From positions 1 through 64,000 of the forward strand of contig JAMLHI010000005.1 of assembly GCA_023957235.1 (NCBI GenBank): a stretch of 64,000 nucleotides of DNA. The letters are read 5' to 3'. A program made the position numbers and the translations under genes. The notes beneath the pieces were generated by a model. The model saw nothing but the letters and a program-made list of their open reading frames with translations. It ran no database searches and was not told the origin of the DNA. This stretch comes from Chitinophagales bacterium. GTDB lineage: Bacteria > Bacteroidota > Bacteroidia > Chitinophagales > JADIYW01. This document shows, in pieces, positions 1 through 29,261 of the stretch; the stretch's first letter is position 1, and each line of letters begins with the position of its first letter.

Positions 1-380
1 CAGTTTTCTGCTCCGAAATCCGCCACTATGCAAAGCCACCAACGTCAGGCTGTAAAAAAAGTCCTTTTCTTCTAAATTACCAATCGTAAAAAACTAAGAA
101 AAGTTAGCATTTGCTTTTTTAGAGAACTTATTTTTAGGCTGCTATACTTTGCTTGTGAAAATAAAAGGGCTGAAAATGGCTGAAATAAAGTCTATTTTCT
201 GCAAAAAATCTCCTCCTGGGTACTTTGGTGTACACACGGTGAATACCAATAATTATAGGCATTTTTTGTACAAATATTATACTTTAAAAAATACGAATTT
301 TTTACTACTTTTGAATGAGTCAGTGAATGATTTTTTTACAGACTGACGTTATGTGACATAATAAAAAAAACATCAAAAGA
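1..380. other. Non-coding accessory DNA with cassette boundaries
   Basis: I see no convincing gene here. On the minus strand, positions 35-60 read TTTTTTTACAGCCTGACG followed by TTGGTGGC. This closely matches the plus-strand cassette boundaries at 331-357 and 1340-1365. The stretch therefore holds two boundaries facing away from each other, one at about 43 pointing left and one at about 348 pointing right. The right part, 238-347, is the first copy of the 110-bp direct repeat. A possible 65-codon frame over 149-346 runs into that repeat and looks spurious. Confidence 0.6.
238..347 (+). repeat. 110-bp direct repeat, copy A
   Basis: This copy is nearly identical to 1247-1356, with a few mismatches around the middle (about 292-301) and one just before the boundary. 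Both copies end in a T-run, ACAGACTG and then (A/G)CGTTA, and each is followed within 50 bp by the start codon of an unrelated gene (381 and 1395). Its placement at the front of each gene suggests an array-specific attC-like recombination repeat. No integrase gene is visible in the window. Confidence 0.85.
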
Positions 381-899
381 ATGAGACACTTAGTGACAAT
401 TTTTGTTTTGATGCTTTACTCGACTTTGATGACTAAAGCTCAAACCAGTTATTCTGGAAAAATTGAAGTTGGTTATCAGCATTATTTATTCAGGACTCTG
501 ACAGTTGAGCCAGGACATGGTTGGAAAGGCTACAATCTTGACAAAGAGCAAAATGCTTATAACATTACAACTTCTCAAGGAATAACTTTTGCCACTAGAA
601 AGTTATTTGCAGGTATAGGAATTGGATACCACAACTTTAAAGGCACTGACGGCATTTCAATTTTCGGAGATTTCGAATATTTACCGTTAAAAAACAAAAT
701 AACACCTATATTAAATTTGAGACTAGGTTACAATCATATTTGGAATCAATATGAAGGTGGAACTGGGACAATGCTCACAGAACTTGGACTTGGGCTAAAT
801 TATAAAATAAATGAAAACTTTGGAATCTATTTAAAGTCTGGAATTTTCATAAGTCAACAAGCCTTTTTGATACCAATAACTTTAGGTTTTAGATTTTAA
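381..899 (+). CDS. Small outer-membrane beta-barrel protein (cassette 1 gene)
   Basis: The 172-aa product has an N-terminal signal peptide ending near 'TKAQ' (residues 1-21). Alternating hydrophobic and aromatic strands follow, and the chain ends in '...TLGFRF', with the terminal Phe typical of outer-membrane barrels assembled by BAM. The size fits an 8-stranded OmpA/OmpW-like barrel. The gene stands alone, starting 33 bp after the cassette core GTTATGTG (348-355) and ending 26 bp before the complementary core CACATAAT (926-933). Nothing identifies its specific function. It is most likely a surface or envelope protein carried as mobile cargo. Confidence 0.6.
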   Translation: MRHLVTIFVLMLYSTLMTKAQTSYSGKIEVGYQHYLFRTLTVEPGHGWKGYNLDKEQNAYNITTSQGITFATRKLFAGIGIGYHNFKGTDGISIFGDFEYLPLKNKITPILNLRLGYNHIWNQYEGGTGTMLTELGLGLNYKINENFGIYLKSGIFISQQAFLIPITLGFRF

Positions 900-1394
900 A
901 ACAAAAATAATTAACAGAATTACGCCACATAATAAGGCATTGCCAAAAGCGGGGCTGAACGGCTATATTGGGCATTTATGCAAGGTTCAACATTCGTTCT
1001 TCGATTGAACTTTTGTGCAAAAAATCTGCTCTATCTCAAATTTACCAACCATTTTTCAGTATTATGCCTAATAATTATAGGCTGAAATATTTCGTCTCAA
1101 CAAAGAAAGACACTCCTTTTGTGTCTAAACAAGAGATTGGATACCTCATTGCTTTAAATCCAACTTGTACTCAAAAGCATCGATAAACCAAATTTCATTA
1201 TCCCTGGATATCTGGCTCTATAAATTTGAAAAGGTAATCTGCTATTGGTGAATACCAATAATTATAGGCATTTTTTGTACAAATATTATACTTTAAAAAA
1301 TACAATATTTTTACTACTTTTGAATGAGTCAGTGAATGATTTTTTTACAGACTGGCGTTAGTGGCAACTTTAGACAGACCTTCAATAATTTAAT
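900..1394 (+). other. Cassette 1 tail, attC-like region
   Basis: This is non-coding. In order it holds the inverse core CACATAAT (926-933) followed by AAGGC and a GC-rich patch AAAAGCGGGGCTGAACGGC (946-964), a copy of a dispersed 'TACCAACCATTTTTCAGTA' element (1043-1061), an imperfect palindrome GCCTAATAATTATAGGC (1066-1082), a small hairpin TATTGGT-gaat-ACCAATA (1243-1260), and repeat copy B ending at 1356. At about 430 bp from inverse core to next core it is much longer than a textbook attC (roughly 60-140 bp), so it is only integron-like. A 72-codon frame at 968-1186 has no recognisable protein character. Confidence 0.55.
1247..1356 (+). repeat. 110-bp direct repeat, copy B
   Basis: This is the second copy of the 238-347 repeat. 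It ends directly at the core GTTAGTGGC (1357-1365) that opens cassette 2. Unlike copy A, it is preceded by sequence completing a TATTGGT/ACCAATA hairpin, so copy B may be the more intact version. Confidence 0.85.
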
Positions 1395-2342
1395 ATGAAC
1401 GAAATTTTAAACAAACTTAAAGCAAAAATCACAGGACACCGTGATACATATAATCGTAACGAAACCGCAGTTAGACGACAACTAATAGAGCCAATTCTAG
1501 ATGAACTCGGTTGGCACACAGACGACCCTTCTTTGGTCGAATTAAATGCTACAACTGAAGACAGAGATATTCCAGATTACTCATTATTGAAAGACAAAAG
1601 AGTAGAAACCTATGTTGAAGCCAAAAATCTGTCAACAAATATTATTGTCCATTTACCTCAACTTGCAAGATATTGCATCAATAATGGTAAAGAGTTTGGA
1701 ATAATTACCAACGGTAACGACTGGCTATTAATCAAAACTTTTGAGAAAGATACCAAACCTAAAGACCGCATTATTTGGCAAGTTTCAATAGAGAATGACA
1801 ATGTTTCGACTATCAAAAACAGACTTTCAAATATTTCAAGAGAACAAATTGGTAGTCTTCCTGAACTTATTGAAAAGGAAAAACAAATTCAGAATTTTTG
1901 GAGTGAGTATGTGTCTGATGAGAATAAACTCGTTGACAAACTATCAATTGAAATTGCTAAAGAGTTTTTAGCTAAACATCCTGATGAAGATTACGAACAG
2001 GAAACGATTATTTATTTTTTCAAATCAAAGTTATGGGCTTTTTTAACCGAAAGAACAGTTACAGATAATATCGAACCGGATACTAACAGTTCATTTAAAA
2101 ATCAAAATTCGGACAGAACTAATTATAGTTTCACTAAACTTAAAAAATCTGGAACGCCATCTGTGAGTGACTGGGTTAAACAAATTCCTGAACTTCGCAA
2201 AATATATGGACTTAATTCTTGGAGAGACATTTGTGACCATTTACACATACCGGTTGAGGGTGACAGTGCGAGGCGAAGATTAAAAAAGTGGGTAGAACAA
2301 AATAAACCAAATTGGGTGACAGTTCCCGAACCGAAAAAATGA
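1395..2342 (+). CDS. Orphan HsdR N-terminal-like PD-(D/E)XK nuclease (cassette 2 gene)
   Basis: The 315-aa protein resembles the N-terminal nuclease domain of type I restriction R subunits (HSDR_N family). The stretch NETAVRRQLIEPILDELGW (22-40) is characteristic. It is followed by P60-D61 and E75-x-K77 ('YVEAK'), which fits a PD-(D/E)XK active site, and then 'LARYCINNGKEFGIITNG'. There is no helicase motor and no HsdM or HsdS neighbour, so it is not a functional type I R subunit. Residues about 250-315 form a separate basic tail with a possible small DNA-binding fold. The gene lies between the core GTTAGTGGC (1357-1365) and its near-complement GCCACTAAAC (2351-2360). A stand-alone defence nuclease is plausible but not shown. 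Confidence 0.75.
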   Translation: MNEILNKLKAKITGHRDTYNRNETAVRRQLIEPILDELGWHTDDPSLVELNATTEDRDIPDYSLLKDKRVETYVEAKNLSTNIIVHLPQLARYCINNGKEFGIITNGNDWLLIKTFEKDTKPKDRIIWQVSIENDNVSTIKNRLSNISREQIGSLPELIEKEKQIQNFWSEYVSDENKLVDKLSIEIAKEFLAKHPDEDYEQETIIYFFKSKLWAFLTERTVTDNIEPDTNSSFKNQNSDRTNYSFTKLKKSGTPSVSDWVKQIPELRKIYGLNSWRDICDHLHIPVEGDSARRRLKKWVEQNKPNWVTVPEPKK

Positions 2343-2374
2343 GAAAAGCAGCCACTAAACATTATGAAGAATAG

Positions 2375-2412
2375 AAAAAAGCCCTAACAAATAAAATTGT
2401 TTGGGGCTTTTT
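2375..2412 (+). terminator. Intrinsic terminator after the nuclease gene
   Basis: AAAAAGCCCTAACA and TGTTTGGGGCTTTTT form an imperfect hairpin with an 8-nt loop, an A-tract before and a T-tract after. It can work in both directions. It closes cassette 2 and separates it from the retron module. Confidence 0.75.
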
Positions 2413-2596
2413 GCTATTCGTTGTTCAGCAACAAGCTCAGCATATCATTCAGTGACACGATTAAATCTTTTCATATAGGTGGTTTCGTAGCTTTTATCTA
2501 CTCTATTTTGTTAAGTTTTTGAGTGTAAAAAACTGTTGTATGTAAAAAATCTTCATATACAAAGCTCCCCTTATCCAAAAAGGATGAAGGTTTAGG

Positions 2597-2636
2597 TGTC
2601 TTGTCCTATAATAGGTTTACACTCAAAAGTATAAAA
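2597..2636 (+). mobile_element. Solo left end of the IS3-family element
   Basis: TGTCTTGTCCTATAATAGG and the next 20 bases match the left end of the complete IS (15684 onward) with only a few differences. The match stops before the transposase start codon. It is therefore a remnant or a solo terminal repeat. It sits 139 bp upstream of the DnaB-like gene. Confidence 0.75.
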
Positions 2637-2774
2637 CAATTTCAAGATGAGATATTTTCATTTTTTTTACGAAACGAAAAGTCAAGCAAAAAAAGCAAAA
2701 GAGCCATTAGTCAAAACAGGAAAATAATTATCAACATTGAAAACTAACCTAAGCATAATCCATACCTTCACAAA

Positions 2775-3866
2775 ATGAATCAGGGAATAAAAGATAAAAT
2801 TGAAAATCTAATCGGCAGACAAGACCTTGAAGAAAGAGAATTGCTTTCTCATTTGAAGCAGATTGTTTACGAATCGGAATTGCAAAACAGTGTTGCAAGA
2901 GAATCAAAGAGCATTTCCGACCTTGTTTCTGAAAATGTAAATCAGCTAAAAAGTAATAGCCAAAACAACAATACAATAAAAAGTGGTTTTGCCGATTTTG
3001 ATAAAATGTTTGGTGGCTTTGGTTTGGGAGAGTTTGTTGTAATCGGTGGCAGACCTGCAATGGGAAAAACACAGTTGCTTGTTAACCTATCGCTTAATAT
3101 TTCGCAAACAGTTCCTGTTCTTTATTTCACTTTTGATTTGTCGGAGCTTTTACTGACAAGCAGATTTATTTCTTCGCTTTCAGGAATTGCAGTCAATAAG
3201 ATTTTACAACACGAACTCACTGAGGAACAGAAGAAAATCTTATCCGCTAAATCAAAAGAGATTGGCAAATACAAAATCTTTGTGAACGACAGTTGCAATT
3301 ACTCTTTCTCTGCTATGAAAGCTATTTGTCAAAAGCATATTCAGGAGGATGGAGTGAAGGTGATTATTGTTGACTATATACAAATGATGAGTTCAAACAA
3401 ATACCGCAACAATCGTGAACTTGAAATCAGTTATATCAGTCGAGAGTTGAAAAACATCGCCAAAGACTTTAATGTTTGCGTGATTGCAACAAGTCAATTA
3501 AGCAGAGCCGTTGAATCAAGAGGCGGTTCAAGACACCCACAACTTTCAGATTTAAGAGATAGCGGAGCAATTGAACAAGATGCTGACAAAGTAATTTTTA
3601 TTTACCGACCCGAATATTACGGATTTGAAAGTGATGAAGATGGCAATAACACGGAGGGATTAACAGAAATTATTTTGGCAAAGAACAGAAACGGAAGTTT
3701 AGGAAGTATCAAACTTTTGAGAGATAATAACTTTACCAATTTCAGAAGTTTTGACACCTACAAAAATGATTTTTCCTTTTCTCAAAATAGATTAGATGAA
3801 ATAACGGCTAAAAACCCGAATTTAAAAAATTTTACAGACAATTTAGAATCAGAAACACCGTTTTAA
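2775..3866 (+). CDS. DnaB-like helicase C-domain protein, candidate retron effector
   Basis: The 363-aa protein consists of the RecA-like C-terminal motor of replicative helicase DnaB. It shows Walker A GRPAMGKT (92-99), Walker B VIIVDYIQ (196-203), SQLSRAVE (240-247) and DLRDSGAIEQDAD (259-271). It lacks the DnaB N-terminal collar domain and has only about 65 residues of mostly helical, polar sequence in its place, so it is shorter than the usual 450-500 aa. At the place of the catalytic Glu in the family's 'SLEMS' motif it has Asp (FTFDLS, D121). The stop codon lies 12 nt before the retron a1 repeat, so gene, ncRNA and reverse transcriptase look co-transcribed. I infer a role as the retron's effector or DNA-sensing partner. 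An independent phage or plasmid replication helicase is the alternative. Confidence 0.75.
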   Translation: MNQGIKDKIENLIGRQDLEERELLSHLKQIVYESELQNSVARESKSISDLVSENVNQLKSNSQNNNTIKSGFADFDKMFGGFGLGEFVVIGGRPAMGKTQLLVNLSLNISQTVPVLYFTFDLSELLLTSRFISSLSGIAVNKILQHELTEEQKKILSAKSKEIGKYKIFVNDSCNYSFSAMKAICQKHIQEDGVKVIIVDYIQMMSSNKYRNNRELEISYISRELKNIAKDFNVCVIATSQLSRAVESRGGSRHPQLSDLRDSGAIEQDADKVIFIYRPEYYGFESDEDGNNTEGLTEIILAKNRNGSLGSIKLLRDNNFTNFRSFDTYKNDFSFSQNRLDEITAKNPNLKNFTDNLESETPF

Positions 3867-3878
3867 AAATGAAGATAT

Positions 3879-4046
3879 TGAGCCGTTGTTTAAAGAATTA
3901 TGATGTCAAATATTTATGACATTGCGGTTGTGTTCCGCAACCCGTGAAGTAGTGGAAAGAGTGAGAATTAGCGCCTTTATTGCGATGCTCACTTCGTTCC
4001 GCTTCTCATAAAGGCGATTAAGTCAAAGATAATTTACAACGGCTCA
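3879..4046 (+). ncRNA. Retron msr-msd non-coding RNA
   Basis: An 11-bp perfect inverted repeat, TGAGCCGTTGT (3879-3889) and ACAACGGCTCA (4036-4046), has the position and length of retron a1/a2. Inside it are ATGTCA/TGACAT (3903-3908/3917-3922), TTGCGG/CCGCAA (3922-3927/3935-3940), and a longer msd-like hairpin CGCCTTTAT/ATAAAGGCG (3972-3980/4008-4016). The last stem can be extended outward by four pairs with one bulged A. The reverse transcriptase starts 8 nt after a2. The order a1, short msr hairpins, long msd hairpin, a2, RT is the retron arrangement. I cannot identify the branching guanosine, and the msr/msd boundary is approximate. Confidence 0.85.
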
Positions 4047-4054
4047 TTTTTATT

Positions 4055-5173
4055 ATGCCAACAGTTGAAAAAATATTAACCTTTTCCCAAGCCCATAAAA
4101 GTATAATTCAAAAATACTTTCATGGTGGTTATTACTATTCAAACACACCTAAACTAATACAAGAAATTAAGAAACACGAACTCAATGCTTTATTCCTACT
4201 TTCAATAGAAACACCAACCGAACTTTGCAGATTTCTTAAAACTTCTTTCTTTGAGTTGGAAGAACAAATCAATGACCCTATTTACAAACATTACGCTATT
4301 AAAAAGAAGAGAGGAGGAAACAGACAAATTTATTCGCCAGAAAATAAATTAAAGGCAATTCAAAGACGTTTAAATTATTTTTTGCAAGCCTATTACTTAT
4401 GGATAAAACCCAATGAAGTTTTTGGCTTTGTTGTCAATCCGCATTACTTAGGAAACTATTGCAATATTGCTGAAAATGCGAAACCGCATATAGGCAAAAA
4501 ACACTTATTGAATATTGACTTAAAAGACTTCTTTCCGAGTATTTCGGCAAGTCGTGTAAAATCGGTTTTTACATCTTCCTATTTCAATTTTAGTGAGCAA
4601 ATAGCAACTGCATTGACCCTTTTAACTACTTATGAAGGCCATATTCCAATTGGAGCTCCTACTTCACCAGTCATTTCAAACTTTGTTTGCTTTCAATTGG
4701 ATGCAGATTTGAAAAGTTTTTGCGACACAAACGGATTGCGATTTACACGCTATGCTGATGATTTGACCTTTTCGTCTGACACACTAATTTCCTTCGATGT
4801 TGTTCTTGATATTATCAATCTGATTAGAAAAAACGGATTTGCGATAAACGAAAAGAAACTTCGCTTGAAATCGTCAAATCGCAAACAGACTGTTACAGGT
4901 TTGATAGTAAATGAAAAGGTAAATGTTGATAGAAAACTATTGAAGAAAATCAGAGCCATGTTGCACGACCTCACGACAAACGGCATTGATATTGCAACCA
5001 AAGGGCACTTTAATTTGAATGGTGAAATTGAACCAAAGCACAGAGCAAAATTTATTCAACGCCTTGAAGGTTATATCAACTTTGTTGGACAAGTGAGAGG
5101 AAAAAGTGATGAACTTTATTTCAAACAGAAAACTTTATTTGATAGTTTATTTGAATCCAAGAACAAAGAATAA
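4055..5173 (+). CDS. Retron-type reverse transcriptase
   Basis: The 372-aa protein copies part of the adjacent structured RNA into msDNA. Retron hallmarks are in order: NAKPH (141-145, the NAxxH motif), NIDLKDFFPSI (153-163, first catalytic Asp), GAPTSPVISN (200-209), YADD (233-236, catalytic Asp pair) and VTG (280-282), followed by a basic thumb region with V-D-R...RAMLHDL. There is no maturase, endonuclease or protease domain, which excludes a group II intron or diversity-generating RT. The start at 4055 leaves only 8 nt after the a2 repeat, as usual for retrons. The likely role is anti-phage defence with the upstream DnaB-like gene. The retron subtype cannot be assigned by eye. Confidence 0.93.
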   Translation: MPTVEKILTFSQAHKSIIQKYFHGGYYYSNTPKLIQEIKKHELNALFLLSIETPTELCRFLKTSFFELEEQINDPIYKHYAIKKKRGGNRQIYSPENKLKAIQRRLNYFLQAYYLWIKPNEVFGFVVNPHYLGNYCNIAENAKPHIGKKHLLNIDLKDFFPSISASRVKSVFTSSYFNFSEQIATALTLLTTYEGHIPIGAPTSPVISNFVCFQLDADLKSFCDTNGLRFTRYADDLTFSSDTLISFDVVLDIINLIRKNGFAINEKKLRLKSSNRKQTVTGLIVNEKVNVDRKLLKKIRAMLHDLTTNGIDIATKGHFNLNGEIEPKHRAKFIQRLEGYINFVGQVRGKSDELYFKQKTLFDSLFESKNKE

Positions 5174-5192
5174 CTAACCCAGAAAAAATACA

Positions 5193-5329
5193 AGTCTTCC
5201 ACTAAAATAAAGTTTCACTAAAAAGTAAAAAAATGGACTAAAAATAAAACTATTGCTGGATTAAAATATCACTGTTAACTAAGTGTTGGGTTTATCAAAT
5301 AAACTGTCATCATTTTTTTGGACGAATCA
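5193..5329 (+). mobile_element. 137-bp MITE-like deletion derivative of the IS
   Basis: The left 46 bp align with the left end of the IS at 15684, including CACTAAAAAGT and the first bases of its transposase gene (ATGGAC). The right 30 bp (AAACTGT...TTTTGGACGAATCA) align with the IS right end at 17119-17146. About 60 bp of unrelated sequence lies between, so almost the whole transposase is deleted. It starts 19 bp after the RT stop codon. I found no clear target duplication. Confidence 0.7.
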
Positions 5330-5433
5330 ATAAGTCAAACCAAAAAGAGCTTAAATTTTTCCCAACGCTCGAAAATCCGAACGGTTGATAATTAAGTCCA
5401 AACAAATACATCAAGACGGTAAGACATAGTTGA

Positions 5434-7515
5434 TTACCACTTCACTTCTATTTCATTGCTGAAGTCTGATTGCCTTCCGTCTTTATGAATAGCTTTCACC
5501 CTATAACGTACATTTTGGCCAGAATTATATTTTTTATCTGTAAACCTCAAATCTCTTATTCCAGATTTATATATGGCATAAGAATTCTGATTTACTGAAC
5601 GATAAATCACGAATGTTACATTCTCTATATTAGGAAATTTCCATGACAACAGGCAGTTGAAATCGCCATCTAACTGGTAACTCAGGCTTTCAATATCACT
5701 CAGTTTTTTGATGATATAAGCAGTAGCAGTTACTGTTCCAGGAGATTCTGACATTAGATTTGATTCGTCAATCGCTTTTAATTTATATTCATATTTATTT
5801 CCGGCAACTACATCTTTATCTAAAGTCAAAATCTCCTTATTGAATATTGTATAGTTAAACTTTTTAATTTCTTGATAATTCTGCTCACCTTTCAAACGTC
5901 TGTATAAAATATGCTCTACGACATCGGCAGAAGGGCTTGGATACCAACGGATTTCAACACCCTCCTTTTTACTTTCAGTTCTAACAAACAAAGGTTGTGC
6001 AGGTGGAACAATATCTGGTTTAGTCAAAACTAGAACATCAGAATATTCACTATAATTAGAACGATGATCTATTGCTACCACTTTATAATATATCTTCTTT
6101 GTTGACACTTTTAAAGGTATGGTATCATGCCAAACAGTATCAGTGATATATTTTGGTGTTTGATTGAAAAATATTTTTCCACCATCATTATTAAAATGGA
6201 CATAATAACCTTTTAGATCATTCTCTTTGCCCAAGTCCCAAGAGACTGTTACTACACCATTAGAGTCTATGCTCCCTTTTAATCCTTTAGGTTTATCTGG
6301 CGGAATGCTATCTTTATAGCCACCATAAATAGCTGAAGTCACATTCACATTTCCTTCGCGATCAAATACTCCAATAAAATAATAGTTATGCTTGAGCTCA
6401 TTGAAGTTTTCGTCAATAAATGAACGAGAATTAGAAGGTAAAGGCTCTTTGGTAAGTTCTATAAAATTATTATCTACTTCATTGCTCTTAGAAATTCTAA
6501 AGCCTGCAATATCAGTATCTTTGGAGTTGACATCCCATGAAATTTTCAACCTCGAACCTCCAAGATACTCTGTTTGAACATTATACGGAGCTTCAGGTTT
6601 TGTGCGATCTTTTGCCATAGCTTCTATATTGTCGCTCATAGGGCCTTTAGTAGCAAAAGGTGTCAATCCTTCAATTCTATATAAATAAGGTTGATAGTTG
6701 ACAGGTACAGAATCTTGATAGACAAACCTATTCTCATTCTTATAAGACAAATAAGAAGTAGGTAAATCATTGCGTTTTTTCCATGTTTGTCCTTTATCAT
6801 CTGAACGATAAATATTATAGGCAGAATAATATTCTTTATTGACAATTTTATCCCATAACAAATCAATAGTTTTCTCCCCAGAAACAATTTCAGCAATCTT
6901 AATTTTGGGAAATTCAAAAGGCACACATCTTACCATACTTACACCTACTTCATATTCATGTTGGTAGTTATTGCTATTGACCATGATACGATAAACATAG
7001 GATTTTCCCTTTTGAATATCTTTATCTTCATATCGCAAAGCCGATGCGAGTGCTGCATTTCTACTAAACTCAGATGCTAACAAACAGGCAGAATATAGAT
7101 TTTGTATTTGGTCAGCTTTTTCCATCATATTATAAAGATTGGCATTACTGCTATCACGACTACCATGTACGGCTTGACCTGCAACCATCAATAATGTATC
7201 AGTCGGATTTTTTTTGACTAAATCTTTCCATTTATCAAGTGTCAAAGGTTGAATAGTGTCCAATAGTGTCCATTCTAAATCACTTGCTGTGTTACTGGTA
7301 TCTATTTCTCTTCTTTCAATTCTATAACCATAAAAGTTGTTCAAAGACCAAAATCCGGGAGAAGAAGGCACCCAGCGAAGGACTACCCTATTTTCATCAT
7401 TAAAATAGATTGAAATCAGATTTATTTTATATATCGAACTATCACTCTCTGACTGCCCAAATATTTTTCCAACAAAACAGAAAAATATAAAGAATAGGAT
7501 GATTTTGTTTTTCAT
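5434..7515 (-). CDS. Secreted fibronectin type III repeat protein
   Basis: The 693-aa product has a signal peptide (residues 1-21, ending 'KIFGQ'). Behind it are about five or six FN3-like beta-sandwich repeats with the pattern 'V.L.W......YYVYR......YRV.A.D', for example around 40-95, 205-300, 310-395, 405-500 and 505-600. There is no enzyme motif and no obvious T9SS C-terminal sorting domain. It is the last gene of a minus-strand operon, 41 bp after the 2480-aa protein. FN3 arrays act as spacers or binding modules on the surface, so it probably works with the two upstream products at the outer membrane. The specific function is unknown. Confidence 0.75.
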   Translation of the reverse strand: MKNKIILFFIFFCFVGKIFGQSESDSSIYKINLISIYFNDENRVVLRWVPSSPGFWSLNNFYGYRIERREIDTSNTASDLEWTLLDTIQPLTLDKWKDLVKKNPTDTLLMVAGQAVHGSRDSSNANLYNMMEKADQIQNLYSACLLASEFSRNAALASALRYEDKDIQKGKSYVYRIMVNSNNYQHEYEVGVSMVRCVPFEFPKIKIAEIVSGEKTIDLLWDKIVNKEYYSAYNIYRSDDKGQTWKKRNDLPTSYLSYKNENRFVYQDSVPVNYQPYLYRIEGLTPFATKGPMSDNIEAMAKDRTKPEAPYNVQTEYLGGSRLKISWDVNSKDTDIAGFRISKSNEVDNNFIELTKEPLPSNSRSFIDENFNELKHNYYFIGVFDREGNVNVTSAIYGGYKDSIPPDKPKGLKGSIDSNGVVTVSWDLGKENDLKGYYVHFNNDGGKIFFNQTPKYITDTVWHDTIPLKVSTKKIYYKVVAIDHRSNYSEYSDVLVLTKPDIVPPAQPLFVRTESKKEGVEIRWYPSPSADVVEHILYRRLKGEQNYQEIKKFNYTIFNKEILTLDKDVVAGNKYEYKLKAIDESNLMSESPGTVTATAYIIKKLSDIESLSYQLDGDFNCLLSWKFPNIENVTFVIYRSVNQNSYAIYKSGIRDLRFTDKKYNSGQNVRYRVKAIHKDGRQSDFSNEIEVKW

Positions 7516-10500: not shown

Positions 10501-13500
10501 TTGAATTTACCTTTAATAAATAAATGAGATAGTCCTCCACTTTCGCTAAATTCCGCACCGAGAGTAGCAGCAATATTGTATGCTTTTCCTTCATCATTAG
10601 AGCCAATTAAGACAGTAATTTGAAGCCCAAATTTTGTATTATAGTTGTTAGTATAGGTAGCTGCTCTAGCGGACGAAGTGGCAGTAACATTATTTGCCTC
10701 AGTCAATGCACTCTGAGTCATGTGATAGTAAAATCCACCACCAAGACCATAAAGTGACACACCTGAAAACAGAGTAATTCCAGAGCTGAAAGCAACAATA
10801 CCATCCACATAAAAATAAGTGTACCAATCTGGTGAATTAAATTCTGTAACAAATCTATCTCTTTTATAAGTACCAAATTCAGCTGCAATTTGAGCTTCTA
10901 CTTCTATTCCTACTTTAATTTTAATAGCCAAGCTACCTTCTACACCTTCCTTGGTTTCAGTTTTATAAAACCTTAAAGACCCATCTAATTCCAACGCACT
11001 AACCGTTACCTGTAAATTGATTTCATCTAATCTAACTCCATTAACAGTAAAATTTTTAAATCCATTTTCTATATCTGGATTGATGAGCAATGCAATTTTA
11101 GCAGACGCTGCAAAACCTTCATTATCAGCAGCTAATATTATTTTAGGCTCAATAACTATTTCTTCATTGGATATCGAAAAAGATTCTAGCGTAATAGGAA
11201 ATCCCGACATGGTAGAACTACTTCCTCCACCACCACCTGAAGGCGAATCTCCATCAGGAGAAGGACCTCTTACATTATCACCCCCTAGATAAGTCATATA
11301 CCCAAAATTGCCTGAAGGATCATCATCAAAAAGATAGCCTGTTCCTCCACCGCTAGGTCTGCCCATCCCTTCTAGTCCTGTAAGACCATAATTAAAATTG
11401 TGAGTAGTATCAATGCCTCTATTAGAACTAATTCTCAAATTTTCGACCCAAATTCCAGGTAGCGACAATGAACTAGGCATGCTCATTCCACTTGGTAAGA
11501 AATCATTTTTGATAGTCAGACTTGCACAAAGATTCATCTCAATAAATGTTTCTGCTCCTACATTGAGTTCTACATAAGTTGCAGCACCAATTGTAGCTTC
11601 TGCCATAGAAATAGGAATTTTAATATCCCCTTCAGGTCTAACATTTACTACAAACTTAAATTCGCATTCTTTATGCTCTAAAGCAGCACAATATTTCAAA
11701 AATTGTGTAGAGTCGGCAATAGGGATGCCCAACTTACCATCAAATTTGACGATTCTAAAGTTGTTTTGAATCATGTGAAATGCAATAGTGTCTAATGAAG
11801 CTTTCCATCCAGACAAACTGCCTTCTTCTTCCCATCTCAAAAGATTGGTAGCATATAGTTGGAAAGAGAGACCGGTATTATCAATAAACATATTATTTAG
11901 AGAGATACTTATAGACCTTTCGCTACTAGAACCCTCAATAAACTTAGGGGTTTTTACACTGAGTTCACCCATGAAAAATCCTTTCCATGTATTCTCCATA
12001 CCAGCAGTATTAAATGCACTGTGATTATAGCCTTCTGGCAGTGAACTTGTTATATTTGAAGGATTTTCAATATCAGAAAAATCTATCCAAACACTATCCC
12101 CAGGAACAAATCTCCATCCATCCAAATCAGGTATTTGAAAGGGTTGCAAATGCATTCTTGCTATAAATCCATCCCCTTTGGTAACTTTGACAGACATCTT
12201 TCCCTCTACTTGTCCTTCTTCTTTGATATTTCCATCTTCATCTTCTGGCAACATCCAATCTCTAGTAAACTTGGCCGTAGCTGCAAGTGTCAGAGACTTG
12301 AAACCACTACAATCTAATTCTAATGAAGTGATATCTAATGGATTGGTTCTTCCTTCAGCTCCATTGACAATAAATTGATTGCTATTTCCGAGGTCAAATA
12401 CTCGATCTTGAGGAAGGAAGATTTTAATATCATTATGAAGGCCATTATTTGTCATACACACGTTGGCTCCCAAAGAAAAGAAACCACCCACAGCATCAGT
12501 TGACATCTCACCTATTGCAGGGATTTTTAAATTAGCTAACATGGTCAAAGAAGCAGTATCCTTTTCAAAAGTCATAGAAGTGATACCTACAGTAATAGTA
12601 TTTCCATCAATTTCTTTATCAATACCTAAGGGCAAGGCAACTTCTGAACCTGGAGTCAGCATACTGATTAACTTATGAGTAGTAGCTAAACTAGCTTCCA
12701 AAGCATCTGCTTCTGTTTCTTCCATATCAAAAATACCATCAGCAATTTCTCTGACATGGAATGGAGTTGAATTATCAACTTCAGGATCCACATTTCCAGA
12801 TATCATTTGTTGTGCAGCATTGACTTTTAGGTTAGTAAAGTTGACCTTCAGCTTTATATTATTAAAGAAAGGAAGGGTAATAACTGCCTTTCCATTTCTA
12901 CTACTGCTACCAGTCGCTTCTTTAATTGTCATTGTAAATCCTGCAACTGTCACTTCATCTCCCACTTGAACCGGATCTCCCTCAGTTGTATTAGTAATTG
13001 CAGGAAATATGCAAGTTGAAGAGCAACCAGTAGAATCTTCTCCTTCAGGTGTTGCTGTAGAATCTACTGTGGCTACTAATGAATGACTTAAGATCAATTT
13101 TCTGATTGCACTTGGATGATAGATATCAGCTTCTGTAATGGCAACACCACTACCACATGGAGTAAAAGTATTAAATCTATAAGGATCTTTTAACCACACA
13201 ACCCTCCAATACAAAGTATCTTCTACAAGTAAATTAGCTGTAAAGTTCACATCTTTATAGACTTTATCATAAAAATTATCTAAATCAAATTCTCTTCGAG
13301 GTGTATTGTCATAAACTCCAGTTGTAGCATCCATATTAGGATTAGATATATCAAAACTTGCCGCATTGTTATATGGGTCACTTTGCACCTTTTCCATTTT
13401 GCAAAAGATAATATTCTCAGGTTCAAAAGTATTTTTCTTTGAAACTTGTAAGACACATTTTTCTCTAACATATAATCCTGGCACTACTGGATCTGAATTG

Positions 13501-25071: not shown

Positions 25072-26385
25072 CTACAGTATTATCCTATTGGCAAATGACT
25101 TATCAAAACTAACAGTTGCTTTGAGATTGTACATAATACCAAAAAGCCCTACAAAAGCTCTATGAAGAAACAAGGCATGTTGTGAACCTCTAGCTGCATT
25201 ATCATTTTTCAATTCTTGCTTACTGTTTAATTCTTCTCCAAAAGATTGCAAATCAATATTGTATTGCTCATCTCCAAAATCAAAACTTTCAGCTCGTAGT
25301 GGTCGGCTAATCAATTCTATTATTCCAAGTGTAATATCTGAATACATTTTTTCCTCTTCAGGTGTATCAGATTCTCTTATAAAATCAAGATTTAAAAATA
25401 TTTTTCTTAGTTGATTTGGGTCATTCAGTACCTCTTCTTTAATCAATGAAAAGTAATGATTATAAAAATCTGAAGATAATTCTTTTGAACAACCAAAATC
25501 TATTACTCCCAATTTTAAATCATCTGTAACTAGAAAATTACCAGGGTGTAAATCTGCATGAAATTTTCTTTTACTATGTATCTGGTCTTGAAAGAAATCA
25601 ACTAAAGTTTGAGCAATGATATTCTTTTTTTCTTGACATGTTTCATTTTTGATAAAATCATTCAAGCTTTGACCTTCCAACCAATCCATAGTTAAAATTC
25701 TATGATTGGATAATTCTGGATAATATTTTGGAACAACTATTCTAGGATGATTTTCTGCTACCTCTAAAGCATCTTCTCCATTTTTCAATTCTTTGACATA
25801 GTCTGTCTCTTCAAGTAATCGTTCAACTATCTCTACAACATACTGTTCAACTGCTGCAGCAGAAACGCCCATATATCTCAATACAAATGGCTTGACCATA
25901 TTGATGTCTGATTGAATACTATCAGCCACTCCAGGATATTGAATCTTCACTGCCAATTTTTTACCATCTTTATATGCCTCATGAACCTGTCCGATGGAAG
26001 CAGCAGCAACAGCATCTGGATTAAAATGGTCATATAAATCATAAGGTGATTTATCCATATATTTTCTGAAAGTATTCATCATCAATGGACCAGATAATCT
26101 CATTGCATTATTCTGAGCAGAGGCAAATTTTTCGGCATAAGCCTTTGGCAAAACTCCTGTATCTACGCTCAACATCTGAGCAATTTTTAAGGCTGTACCT
26201 TTCAATTGGGATAAGACATTAAAGATTTCCTCAGCATTTTTTCTATCTAATTCATCTCTATCATCTTTTCCAAATGCTTTCTTCGTATAATGAGTTACAT
26301 AATTGCCACTCATTTTTACTCCAGCTTTAAAAAACTTAGAGGCTCTCGCCACTTTGCCAACAGGTATTTTACTTTGTGTTTCCAT
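25072..26385 (-). CDS. ABC1/UbiB-family atypical kinase
   Basis: The 437-aa protein belongs to the ADCK/UbiB protein-kinase-like family, often linked to isoprenoid quinone or lipid metabolism. It has the Ala-rich nucleotide loop (AAASIGQVHEA, about 127-137), 'LAVKIQYPG' with the ATP-binding Lys, 'FHADLHPGNF' (catalytic loop) and 'LGVIDFGCSKEL' (metal-binding Asp). The N-terminal family motif reads 'LKGTALKIAQMLS'. There are no clear C-terminal membrane helices. The start overlaps the end of the TetR-like gene by 17 bp, so the two are translated together. It acts probably in the cytoplasm or at the membrane surface; the substrate is unknown. Confidence 0.88.
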   Translation of the reverse strand: METQSKIPVGKVARASKFFKAGVKMSGNYVTHYTKKAFGKDDRDELDRKNAEEIFNVLSQLKGTALKIAQMLSVDTGVLPKAYAEKFASAQNNAMRLSGPLMMNTFRKYMDKSPYDLYDHFNPDAVAAASIGQVHEAYKDGKKLAVKIQYPGVADSIQSDINMVKPFVLRYMGVSAAAVEQYVVEIVERLLEETDYVKELKNGEDALEVAENHPRIVVPKYYPELSNHRILTMDWLEGQSLNDFIKNETCQEKKNIIAQTLVDFFQDQIHSKRKFHADLHPGNFLVTDDLKLGVIDFGCSKELSSDFYNHYFSLIKEEVLNDPNQLRKIFLNLDFIRESDTPEEEKMYSDITLGIIELISRPLRAESFDFGDEQYNIDLQSFGEELNSKQELKNDNAARGSQHALFLHRAFVGLFGIMYNLKATVSFDKSFANRIIL

Positions 26386-27087: not shown

Positions 27088-28062
27088 ATGCGTATCTTAA
27101 ATGATTTGAGGAAAATTTTTGTTCAATACTTGAATGAAAATCTATTCACACAATCACCAAAAGAGTTATATGAACCGAATAATTATTTTTTAAATATCGG
27201 AGGAAAGCGCATGAGACCAGTATTGGTTTTATTGGGCTCACATCTCTATAATAAAAGATATGAAGATGTCTTACCTGCTGCAATGGCTATAGAATATTTT
27301 CACAATTTTTCTCTTATTCATGATGACATCATGGATGCTGCTCCATTAAGAAGAGGACAAGCAACAATTCATGAAAAATACAACTCCAATACTGCAATTC
27401 TGTCTGGAGATGCATTATTAGTATATGCATATAAATTTTTATCGCTTATTCCTCAGGAAAATCTAAAAACAATTCTAGAAATATTCAGCGATACAGCCAT
27501 TGAAGTCTGTGAGGGTCAACAACTGGATATGAATTTTGAAACCCAAGCATCTGTTACTGAAGATGAATATATATGGATGATTAGACAAAAAACATCTGTT
27601 GTTCTCGCAGCAGCAATTAAAATTGGAAGTTTAATTGGAGGTGCTTCAAATGAAGATGCAGAATCTTTGTTTCAATATGCTTTAAATCTAGGAATTGCTT
27701 TTCAAATTCAAGATGATATTTTAGATTGTTATGGAAATATAGAATTAGTAGGAAAACAACCTGGTGGCGACATTATTCAAAATAAAAAGACTCTATTATT
27801 AATCAGAGCTTTGAATCACTGTCAAGATGCAGGCGACAAAACTTTAATTGATATTATGAATAAAAAATATTCCAATTCATCTGAAAAAATAAAAGATGTA
27901 TTGAATATTTATGAAAAATACCAAATAAAAAATTCCGTTGAACAAAGCAAACAATCATATATAGATAAAGCAATAGCACATTTAGATGCTATTCTTTTAG
28001 AAAAAGAAAAAAAAGATATTTTATTTCAATTAACAGAATATTTAGTCAAAAGAGATTATTAA
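27088..28062 (+). CDS. Polyprenyl (isoprenoid) diphosphate synthase
   Basis: The 324-aa enzyme condenses isopentenyl diphosphate with allylic diphosphates to make a prenyl chain for quinones or the C55 carrier. Both aspartate-rich motifs are present: DDIMD (about 86-90, first DDxxD, followed by RRG) and DDILD (about 210-214). The 'GGKRMRP' substrate motif is at about 37-43. The chain length cannot be read from sequence alone. It is divergent from the TetR-like/ABC1 pair, and since ABC1 proteins often serve quinone pathways, a common role in quinone supply is possible. Its end overlaps the convergent TPR gene by 4 bp. Confidence 0.93.
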   Translation: MRILNDLRKIFVQYLNENLFTQSPKELYEPNNYFLNIGGKRMRPVLVLLGSHLYNKRYEDVLPAAMAIEYFHNFSLIHDDIMDAAPLRRGQATIHEKYNSNTAILSGDALLVYAYKFLSLIPQENLKTILEIFSDTAIEVCEGQQLDMNFETQASVTEDEYIWMIRQKTSVVLAAAIKIGSLIGGASNEDAESLFQYALNLGIAFQIQDDILDCYGNIELVGKQPGGDIIQNKKTLLLIRALNHCQDAGDKTLIDIMNKKYSNSSEKIKDVLNIYEKYQIKNSVEQSKQSYIDKAIAHLDAILLEKEKKDILFQLTEYLVKRDY

Positions 28063-29261
28063 TCAGTCAATTTTAAATAAGAACGAATCACTTCAAACAC
28101 TTCATTGTCAGGATAGTATATCTCTTTGAAATATTTTTCAGCTTCTAAGAATTTAATTCTTGCCTCTTTGCTATTCTCTCTATAAAGTATTTGTCCTTGA
28201 AAAAAACAAATATTGCCCATTACTGATTTATCTCTAGCAAATTTCTTTTCTAATTCAGACAATGCCATTAAAACAGGTAGATAATCTACTTCTCTTTCAT
28301 AATAAGCTTGAATCACTCGATTATATACTTCAGGACTACTAGGATTCAACATTAAAATATTGAATACTAACTGGTTTTGTATAGGCATCTTTTCTCTAAT
28401 TGCTATATACAAATAGTCAAGCAATGCTTCTGGATTTTTGGGAGATAAAAGCAAAGCTTTATCAATAAACAAGATAGCAGTATCAGTCTTGTGTTGAAGA
28501 TCATAGGCATAACTAACCAACCTGAGTGCATCCACTTTGGGTGAAGTTTCTTCATACAAATTATGAGAAACCATAGCATAATCAATTGCTAGACTATAGT
28601 TTCGCAATATATACTCGACATAAGCTAGATTGTAATAAGCAGGAGGATATTTACTATTCAAAGAGATAGGTTTACGCAACATTCTTTGAGCTTCATCATA
28701 CTTACCTTGACCGATTAAGATATATCCTAACACAAAATAAGTCTCAAAATCAGCACTATTATTTTCTATACATTTTCGATTAACTTGTTCAAGTTTTGAT
28801 GTTAAAACATCTTTAGAAATAGACATATTATCATCATAATGTAGAAAATAATCATAGAGATAATCAGCCTGAGCTTTATATAAAAATCCCTTTTCTGGAT
28901 ACAATTGAATAAAAGAATCTAAAATAACATCTGCATTCAATGCATATAATTGATATTCTCCAGAACGATTTCTTAACTCGGAAATCTTCTGTCCAGGAGA
29001 TAAATTGATAAAACCAAATTTTTCAAATTGCAAATGGACAACATAAAAATGAATAGCTAAATTCAATTTTATCAAAAAAAGCTCTAAATCTTTGTTTTTA
29101 GGATCCACCTTTTCAATTAATTGATAAGCATCTAATATTCTCCCAGCAAGAACAAGACTATCACTCTTTTGTAATATAAAAGATTTATCTACTTGTGCCG
29201 ATAAACTTTTTAAGCTACAAAAAATAATGAATGATACTACTATTAGCCTTTTTAAATTCAT
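28059..29261 (-). CDS. Periplasmic or secreted TPR-repeat protein
   Basis: The start at 29261 (MNLKRLIVV...SLSAQ) gives a clean signal peptide; an ATG 18 bp upstream would add six residues. The 400-aa mature region is helical, with TPR pairs best seen at about 175-300 ('YFVLGYILIGQGKYDEAQRML', 'YYNLAYVEYILRNYSLAIDYA', 'AILFIDKALLLSPKNPEALLDYL'). TPRs act as protein-binding scaffolds. No partner is evident from the neighbours. It is convergent with the polyprenyl synthase gene, with a 4-bp overlap of stop codons. Confidence 0.7.
   Translation of the reverse strand: MNLKRLIVVSFIIFCSLKSLSAQVDKSFILQKSDSLVLAGRILDAYQLIEKVDPKNKDLELFLIKLNLAIHFYVVHLQFEKFGFINLSPGQKISELRNRSGEYQLYALNADVILDSFIQLYPEKGFLYKAQADYLYDYFLHYDDNMSISKDVLTSKLEQVNRKCIENNSADFETYFVLGYILIGQGKYDEAQRMLRKPISLNSKYPPAYYNLAYVEYILRNYSLAIDYAMVSHNLYEETSPKVDALRLVSYAYDLQHKTDTAILFIDKALLLSPKNPEALLDYLYIAIREKMPIQNQLVFNILMLNPSSPEVYNRVIQAYYEREVDYLPVLMALSELEKKFARDKSVMGNICFFQGQILYRENSKEARIKFLEAEKYFKEIYYPDNEVFEVIRSYLKLTD

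Follow-up and report, generated by a model that had tools for sequence, protein, structure and literature searches.

Putative gene cassettes of an integron-like platform in a Bacteroidota genome, and the recombinases found beside related arrays

At the start of a contig of a Chitinophagales bacterium, two genes each lie between a pair of short complementary words, which raises the question of whether they are integron gene cassettes and, if so, what kind of recombinase would move them. The window, that is, the whole stretch of 64,000 nucleotides analysed here, belongs to a genome of 3.0 Mb in 17 contigs (G000). On sequence evidence alone, we put a probability of roughly 0.87 on the reading that the window units are gene cassettes belonging to an integron-like platform of the Bacteroidota.

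The units at the contig start

The features are collected in Table 1. The core words quoted in the original prediction are present in the sequence at the positions given for them. In cassette 1, 12 of the 15 positions of the two ends form Watson-Crick pairs, and the remaining three are A.C on the top strand and G.T wobbles on the bottom strand. In cassette 2, TTAGTGGC is fully paired, there is one surplus A in AAAC, and pairing restarts past position 11. By our own estimate, the chance of each core pair alone is about 0.5% (4^-7 to 4^-8, multiplied by the size of the search space). Since two units by themselves prove little, the same grammar was sought elsewhere.

Table 1. Features at the start of the window, in window positions.
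Feature	Positions	Strand	Remarks
Cassette 0, right half of attC, GAAATCCGCCACTATGCAAAGCCACCAAC	1..42	+	Cut by the contig start; layout like the right ends of attC in C16, e.g. AAAATCCGCCACTTCGCAAAGCCGAAAAAC followed by GTT
Element E1, ~305 nt, no gene	43..347	+	Terminal inverted repeats GTCAGGCTGTAAAAAAA / TTTTTTTACAGACTGAC
Cassette 1, 5' core to 3' core	348..933	+	
Cassette 1 5' core, GTTATGTGACATAAT	348..362	+	Position 11 is A, a feature of all array cassettes
Cassette 1 gene, 172 aa	381..899	+	Outer-membrane-like protein, judged from sequence
Cassette 1 3' core, ATTACGCCACATAAT	919..933	+	
Cassette 1 attC, left ~97 nt of the standard ~124-nt site, right part missing	930..1026	+	From homologue alignments
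Element E2, left arm lost	1011..1356	+	Right part shares 96% identity with E1; carries promoter-like TACTTTTG
Cassette 2, 5' core to 3' core	1357..2360	+	
Cassette 2 5' core, GTTAGTGGCAACTTT	1357..1371	+	
Cassette 2 gene, 315 aa	1395..2342	+	HSDR_N-type domain (like the N-terminus of a restriction-enzyme R subunit)
Cassette 2 3' core, AAAAGCAGCCACTAAAC	2344..2360	+	
Short attC-like hairpin, AAC-ATTATGAAGAATAGAAAAAAGCCC..GGGGCTTTTTGCTATTC-GTT	2358..2424	+	Behind cassette 2

The protein of cassette 1 has no match in Pfam, NCBIfam or PADLOC, and its gene has a counterpart with 75% DNA identity in a genome of the same genus (G033). No relatives of the cassette 2 protein were found in the genome contig collection searched. 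Neither cassette has an intact standard attC. Matches to the cassette 1 attC from the order all stop at, or within a few nucleotides of, window position 1026 (query 727). The tail of ~430 bp behind the gene of cassette 1 had been offered as a reason to suspect a distinct recombination system; this argument fails because the tail is a truncated ordinary attC (~97 of ~124 nt) plus element E2, while the suspicion itself gains support from the recombinase beside the arrays, which is not an IntI. The hairpin behind cassette 2 has near-copies behind cassettes in locus L020 and in G033 and could double as a transcription terminator. No recombinase was found on the contig of the window, and Rfam gave no match for positions 1-6000.

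Arrays, end pairing and attC hairpins

The genome contains cassette arrays on contigs C16 and C3, close to tyrosine recombinase gene fragments, and also at the start of C17, which opens with a core. In C16:11863-27944, 12 cassettes follow in a row from an attC ending at 11863 back to a 5' core at 26025, and a 13th unit, at 27944, lies before this run and adjoins a recombinase remnant. The C16 units end in a hairpin, mostly of 124 nt from AAC to GTT, and each has its own core pair of 9-10 nt. The cassettes generally stand head to tail and carry one gene each, with imperfect hairpin sites of ~124 nt, sometimes of ~60 or ~80 nt. Their counts depend on the thresholds of our home-made finder, and many arrays are cut by contig ends.

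The general form is a 5' end GTTRNNNNN.. that is complementary to the cassette's own 3' end, ..NNNNNYAAC, and not to the ends of its neighbours. To avoid circularity, 35 units were defined from the arms of the attC hairpins alone, without use of the cores. Over positions 4-10, their own ends matched at 5.86 of 7 positions on average, compared with 2.51 for the ends of other cassettes, and none of 20,000 permutations reached the observed total. At least six of the seven positions matched in 30 of the 35 units, as opposed to 1.7% of the cross pairs, and the neighbouring ends in situ had 2.64 matches of 7, with 0 of 25 reaching six. The original prediction held that the cores match within a cassette and differ between cassettes, and that a lack of such correlation in other copies would refute it. 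Both the hairpin-defined units and cassettes from other genera agree with it, in that a 5' core correlates with the 3' core of its own cassette but not with those of other cassettes.

Positions 1-9 are paired in all 65 cassettes, by selection, and positions 12-14 pair again at 66-92%. Position 11 is an A in 65 of 65 cassettes and in all 39 of a second set from complete genomes (104/104); in neither set is it ever part of a Watson-Crick pair, and its usual partner is C, which gives a mismatch on the top strand and a G.T wobble on the bottom strand. The complementarity of the ends spans ~15 nt, with the A at position 11 unpaired or in a wobble, and both window cassettes obey this grammar, A11 included. 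As a positive control, the same finder, run with looser thresholds, recovered class 1 integron cassettes on plasmids with an own-end pairing of 8-13 nt, so the view that own-end pairing is a property of integrons could be upheld. By the same token, extended end pairing was rejected as a novelty, and only A11 and the anatomy of the sites differ. A genome-wide count of inverted pairs of GTT-initial 10-mers gave no excess over other trinucleotides in this AT-rich DNA, and the signal therefore needs the hairpin as an anchor.

According to the folding energies, the joined circle is more stable as bottom than as top strand in 64 of the 65 cassettes. In all 65, the circle gives a more stable structure than the in-situ arrangement, as would be expected if the R' end is swapped on insertion. 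Mismatches in the hairpin arms are A.C on the top strand, and hence wobble pairs on the bottom strand, in a ratio of 168 to 22, and of 103 to 14 in the second set. Extrahelical bases are absent from 51 of 80 attC stems, with a mean of 0.44 versus 2.14 in IntI sites, and 56 of the 80 stems have a one-sided (4,0) or (3,0) bulge at the R/L border, which is the crossover. The contrast in extrahelical bases needs a larger set, because the IntI-type control for site anatomy comprises only 7 sites and the short sites of ~60-80 nt have more extrahelical bases or bulges (1.19). Measured against the criteria for integrons, the arrays are bounded by attC hairpins with RYYYAAC/GTTRRRY-type cores, which here are longer than 7 nt, and bottom-strand-selective folding of attC is met by energy and wobble asymmetry, without activity having been shown. 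The criterion of extrahelical bases in the attC stem is not met.

One cassette of C16 (24272-23500) is 88% identical over 821 nt to a stretch in G041, a genome of a different family, where it has the same core pair. The homology runs from 11 nt before the 5' core to 29 nt past the attC. A lack of movement of such units between strains was the other outcome named beforehand as a refutation, and a homology that ends at the cassette borders in another family points the opposite way. Lone attC units, from AAC to GTT, are common to different families at 80-98% identity, with alignments that repeatedly end at GTT, and the C16 stretch is matched in 59 of 150 genomes of the order. Movement of the cassettes is inferred from such comparisons of sequences; the recombination itself, whether attI x attC or attC x attC, was not shown and is likewise inferred.

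The recombinase beside the arrays

The search for an IntI or another tyrosine recombinase, which had been proposed as a check, led to a recombinase that adjoins the arrays and is not an IntI. In many Bacteroidota, the arrays at most loci start 35-330 bp downstream of a tyrosine recombinase gene and are co-oriented with it; in G088, G042 and G009, the recombinase lies directly upstream of the array in the same direction. The first cassettes begin after the recombinase stop codon at a common motif, roughly GYATATAnnnnA directly before GTT, and this shared motif meets, at most loci, the criterion of an attI beside the recombinase gene with the first cassette located there. Within equal flanks of 20 recombinase loci in complete genomes, 39 cassettes lie downstream and 4 upstream, those 4 all in one locus. 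Arrays accompany 13 of these loci; the other 7 have no downstream array at the thresholds used, and one of them has upstream cassettes. The closest recombinases of the scan have cassettes downstream and never upstream, and the more distant ones have almost none. Array-linked recombinases occur in many named Bacteroidota, for example Algoriphagus, Flavobacterium, Winogradskyella, Aquiflexum and Alkalitalea, and the family is found in 115 of 395 Bacteroidota genomes (E <= 1e-70). In the genome of the window, C16 and C3 retain only 3' fragments of such genes. Among the matches of the search, one intact candidate is present besides the Xer-like proteins, a protein of 339 aa at C11:3-1019, which runs off the contig end and has no array visible beside it; its relatives include the recombinases next to the arrays of G088, G042 and G009.

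Two attI-like copies, at C16:27940-28000 and 28785-28850 (L026), flank a degraded toxin-antitoxin-like stretch by the 3' remnant of a recombinase gene, as if an insertion had duplicated attI. Close relatives of the array recombinases are also encoded by MAGs named Undinarchaeales, Spirochaetota and Firmicutes (L158, L167, L172), with no array seen nearby, and reflect either transfer or mis-binning.

Between the catalytic Lys motif and HxxRH, 32 array-linked recombinases have 63-68 aa, compared with 72-73 aa in Xer and 107 aa in IntI. The IntI insertion, which holds the I2 helix region, is therefore absent from all 32 proteins measured, and the criterion of an IntI-specific additional domain (I2 helix) is not met. 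The score against the IntI model TIGR02249 is 182.8 bits, below the cut-off of 265. Proteins above this cut-off are missing from the genome of the window and occur in 1 of 150 genomes of the order. That genome, G018, encodes a genuine IntI (C40:3280-4542, L066; 421.9 bits) with a divergent cassette, so the two kinds of platform occur together among related bacteria.

The presence of this IntI leaves some room for a reading in which the units are ordinary, CALIN-like classical cassettes moved by an IntI elsewhere in the population, with the I2-less neighbour being unrelated to them. IntI enzymes and their sites are generally known to be able to work in trans, and own-end complementarity is equally present in class 1 cassettes. 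We nevertheless consider it improbable, since a true IntI is as rare in the order as stated above whereas the array-linked recombinase is present in 115 of 395 Bacteroidota genomes, since the I2-less gene lies within 35-330 bp upstream of many arrays in the same orientation, and since the sites differ in their few extrahelical bases, one-sided bulge, conserved A11 and asymmetric spacers.

The comparison with IntI integrons, class 1 and sedentary chromosomal ones alike, has two sides. The tandem promoter-poor cassettes, the GTT..AAC cores, the own-end complementarity, the bottom-strand-biased hairpins of attC and the insertion point near the recombinase gene are shared. However, the Bacteroidota array recombinase lacks the additional domain with its I2 region, the arrays are downstream and co-oriented while those of class 1 integrons and G018 are divergent, and the sites are marked by A11, by a one-sided bulge at the crossover and by a scarcity of extrahelical bases. 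The system works like an integron but fails the test of IntI membership, and we therefore call it a variant of, rather than an ordinary, integron. The window cassettes and the arrays on C3 and C17 resemble CALIN, clusters of attC without an integrase, in that they have no intact recombinase next to them, but CALIN are defined by IntI-type attC models, and the Bacteroidota sites and the recombinase of the relatives are of another type.

The best NCBIfam matches of the array-linked recombinase are XerA/Xer models, under the cut-off, and a modest AlphaFold model (8 sequences; mean pLDDT 77.5, pTM 0.47) has XerA and VchIntIA as its closest folds. The catalytic domain without the IntI insertion is likewise shared with Xer and XerA. 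These similarities would suit a scheme in which XerC/XerD mobilise the cassettes as in IMEX elements and the array-linked recombinase is a dimer-resolving Xer paralogue, yet this is very improbable. The Xer-like proteins of the genome are separate from the array-linked type, at 32-35% identity, the arrays are linked to the array-recombinase family and not to the sampled Xer-like genes, and the sites presumably do not resemble dif. In a quick tree, the array recombinases fall on one side of a branch with a support of 90 (not starred), apart from IntI (99, starred) and from the four Xer sequences sampled (100, starred), although many deep forks are unresolved. The criterion for a dimer resolvase, clustering with the XerC/XerD of the host, is not met in this tree. 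They also differ from Xer in having a cassette array attached and often a ~70-aa N-terminal extension with an invariant Trp pair, for which Pfam gave no match. A1 separates the family only imperfectly from other Xer-like proteins. At L180 and L182, the array-linked recombinases are 676 and 704 aa long, with very long N-terminal extensions.

In the integron-like platform that we favour, the I2-less recombinase would excise and insert circular cassettes, acting on the folded bottom strand of attC with exchange at G^TT. Insertion would swap the cassette's matching R' for that of its neighbour, attC would be fully paired only in the free circle, and the crossover would be marked by a one-sided bulge of 3-4 nt, where IntI sites have a two-sided spacer and extrahelical bases for the I2 helix to read. 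With less assurance, we lean towards the broader view that single-strand recombination of folded attC evolved twice, or predates I2, in a Xer-like recombinase without I2 in which the one-sided crossover bulge replaces the extrahelical bases, giving a phylum-wide gene-capture platform in Bacteroidota with mobile, gene-less promoter elements at some junctions.

Integron integrases have been said to need the additional domain of IntI or to be defined by it (PMC9668308). I2 has been described as a helix found in no protein other than IntI, which docks the extrahelical bases of attC and confers single-strand recombination; direct proof of this causality is unavailable, because deletion of I2 kills IntI1 (PMC7790495). 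A natural family without I2, with sites that mostly lack the bases read by I2, makes this question directly testable. In a survey of tyrosine recombinases, the insertion was not fully conserved in the integron-like subgroup (PMC8138268), with whose sequences the Bacteroidota family may overlap. Surveys that choose integrases by the additional domain (e.g. PMC2426708) would miss this family, and IntegronFinder 2.0 reported a single complete integron in Bacteroidetes proper, in Salinibacter (PMC9024848). We found no earlier description of the system in the open-licence literature; preprints and subscription papers were outside the scope, and such a description cannot be excluded. Given the share of sampled Bacteroidota genomes that carry the family, the phylum may have a main route of gene exchange that has gone unnoticed. 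If experiments confirm the system, nature has a second way of swapping such cassettes.

Element E and the surroundings of the window cassettes

The 110-bp repeat of the original prediction measures 114 bp in the window (238-351 and 1247-1360, 96% identical), and the proposed search for more copies located about ten others, complete or fragmentary, elsewhere in the genome. As a candidate attC, the repeat was rejected, because it makes up the right part of element E and is located behind the attC. E1 sits precisely at the junction of an attC and the following cassette and carries the promoter-like TACTTTTG 45 nt before the core. TAnnTTTG, which we take to be the Bacteroidota -7 promoter element, is located at -45/-46 before the core in 16 of 27 right ends of E from three genera, compared with 1.5% at random positions. 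We infer that E is an insert at cassette junctions that has no gene and supplies a promoter to a cassette that would otherwise be silent. The two window cassettes stand alone, away from any array, each behind a copy of this repeated element whose outward promoter probably drives it.

E has terminal inverted repeats of 17-20 bp, no gene and many copies, and thereby meets the terminal-repeat criterion of MITEs; by eye, and without an empty-site comparison, its flanks have no obvious target-site duplication. It is hardly credible, though, that the window contains only scattered repeats or MITE-like elements with flanks that happen to match, without a cassette system of its own, for while this would agree with the structure of E and with just two units with broken tails, every full-length copy of E with a readable left end has an attC end before it and a GTT core after it, the window cassettes follow the array grammar including A11, cassette 1 retains ~97 nt of a standard attC, and the own-end permutation test gave 0/20,000.

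E also lies between an attC and the next cassette in L018, L020, L096 and L105. C10 and C14 of the window's genome have contig ends within E, as has G046 C42 on either side, which indicates that the element breaks assemblies. In another genome of the same genus (L058, G033:C12:32000-35000), repeats of ~180 nt consist of a short attC-like hairpin fused to the right end of E and alternate with toxin-antitoxin-like modules at a spacing of ~1 kb, and the own-end core pairs are weak there.

Right beside the window cassettes, positions 2775-5173 encode a lone 363-aa protein with a DnaB-like helicase C-terminal domain and, after it, a reverse transcriptase of the retron type (372 aa); the two are possibly a defence unit. 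The best PADLOC matches of the reverse transcriptase are RT-Protease_XI and RT-Toprim, and an intergenic stretch rich in inverted repeats, at ~3900-4050, could be its ncRNA.
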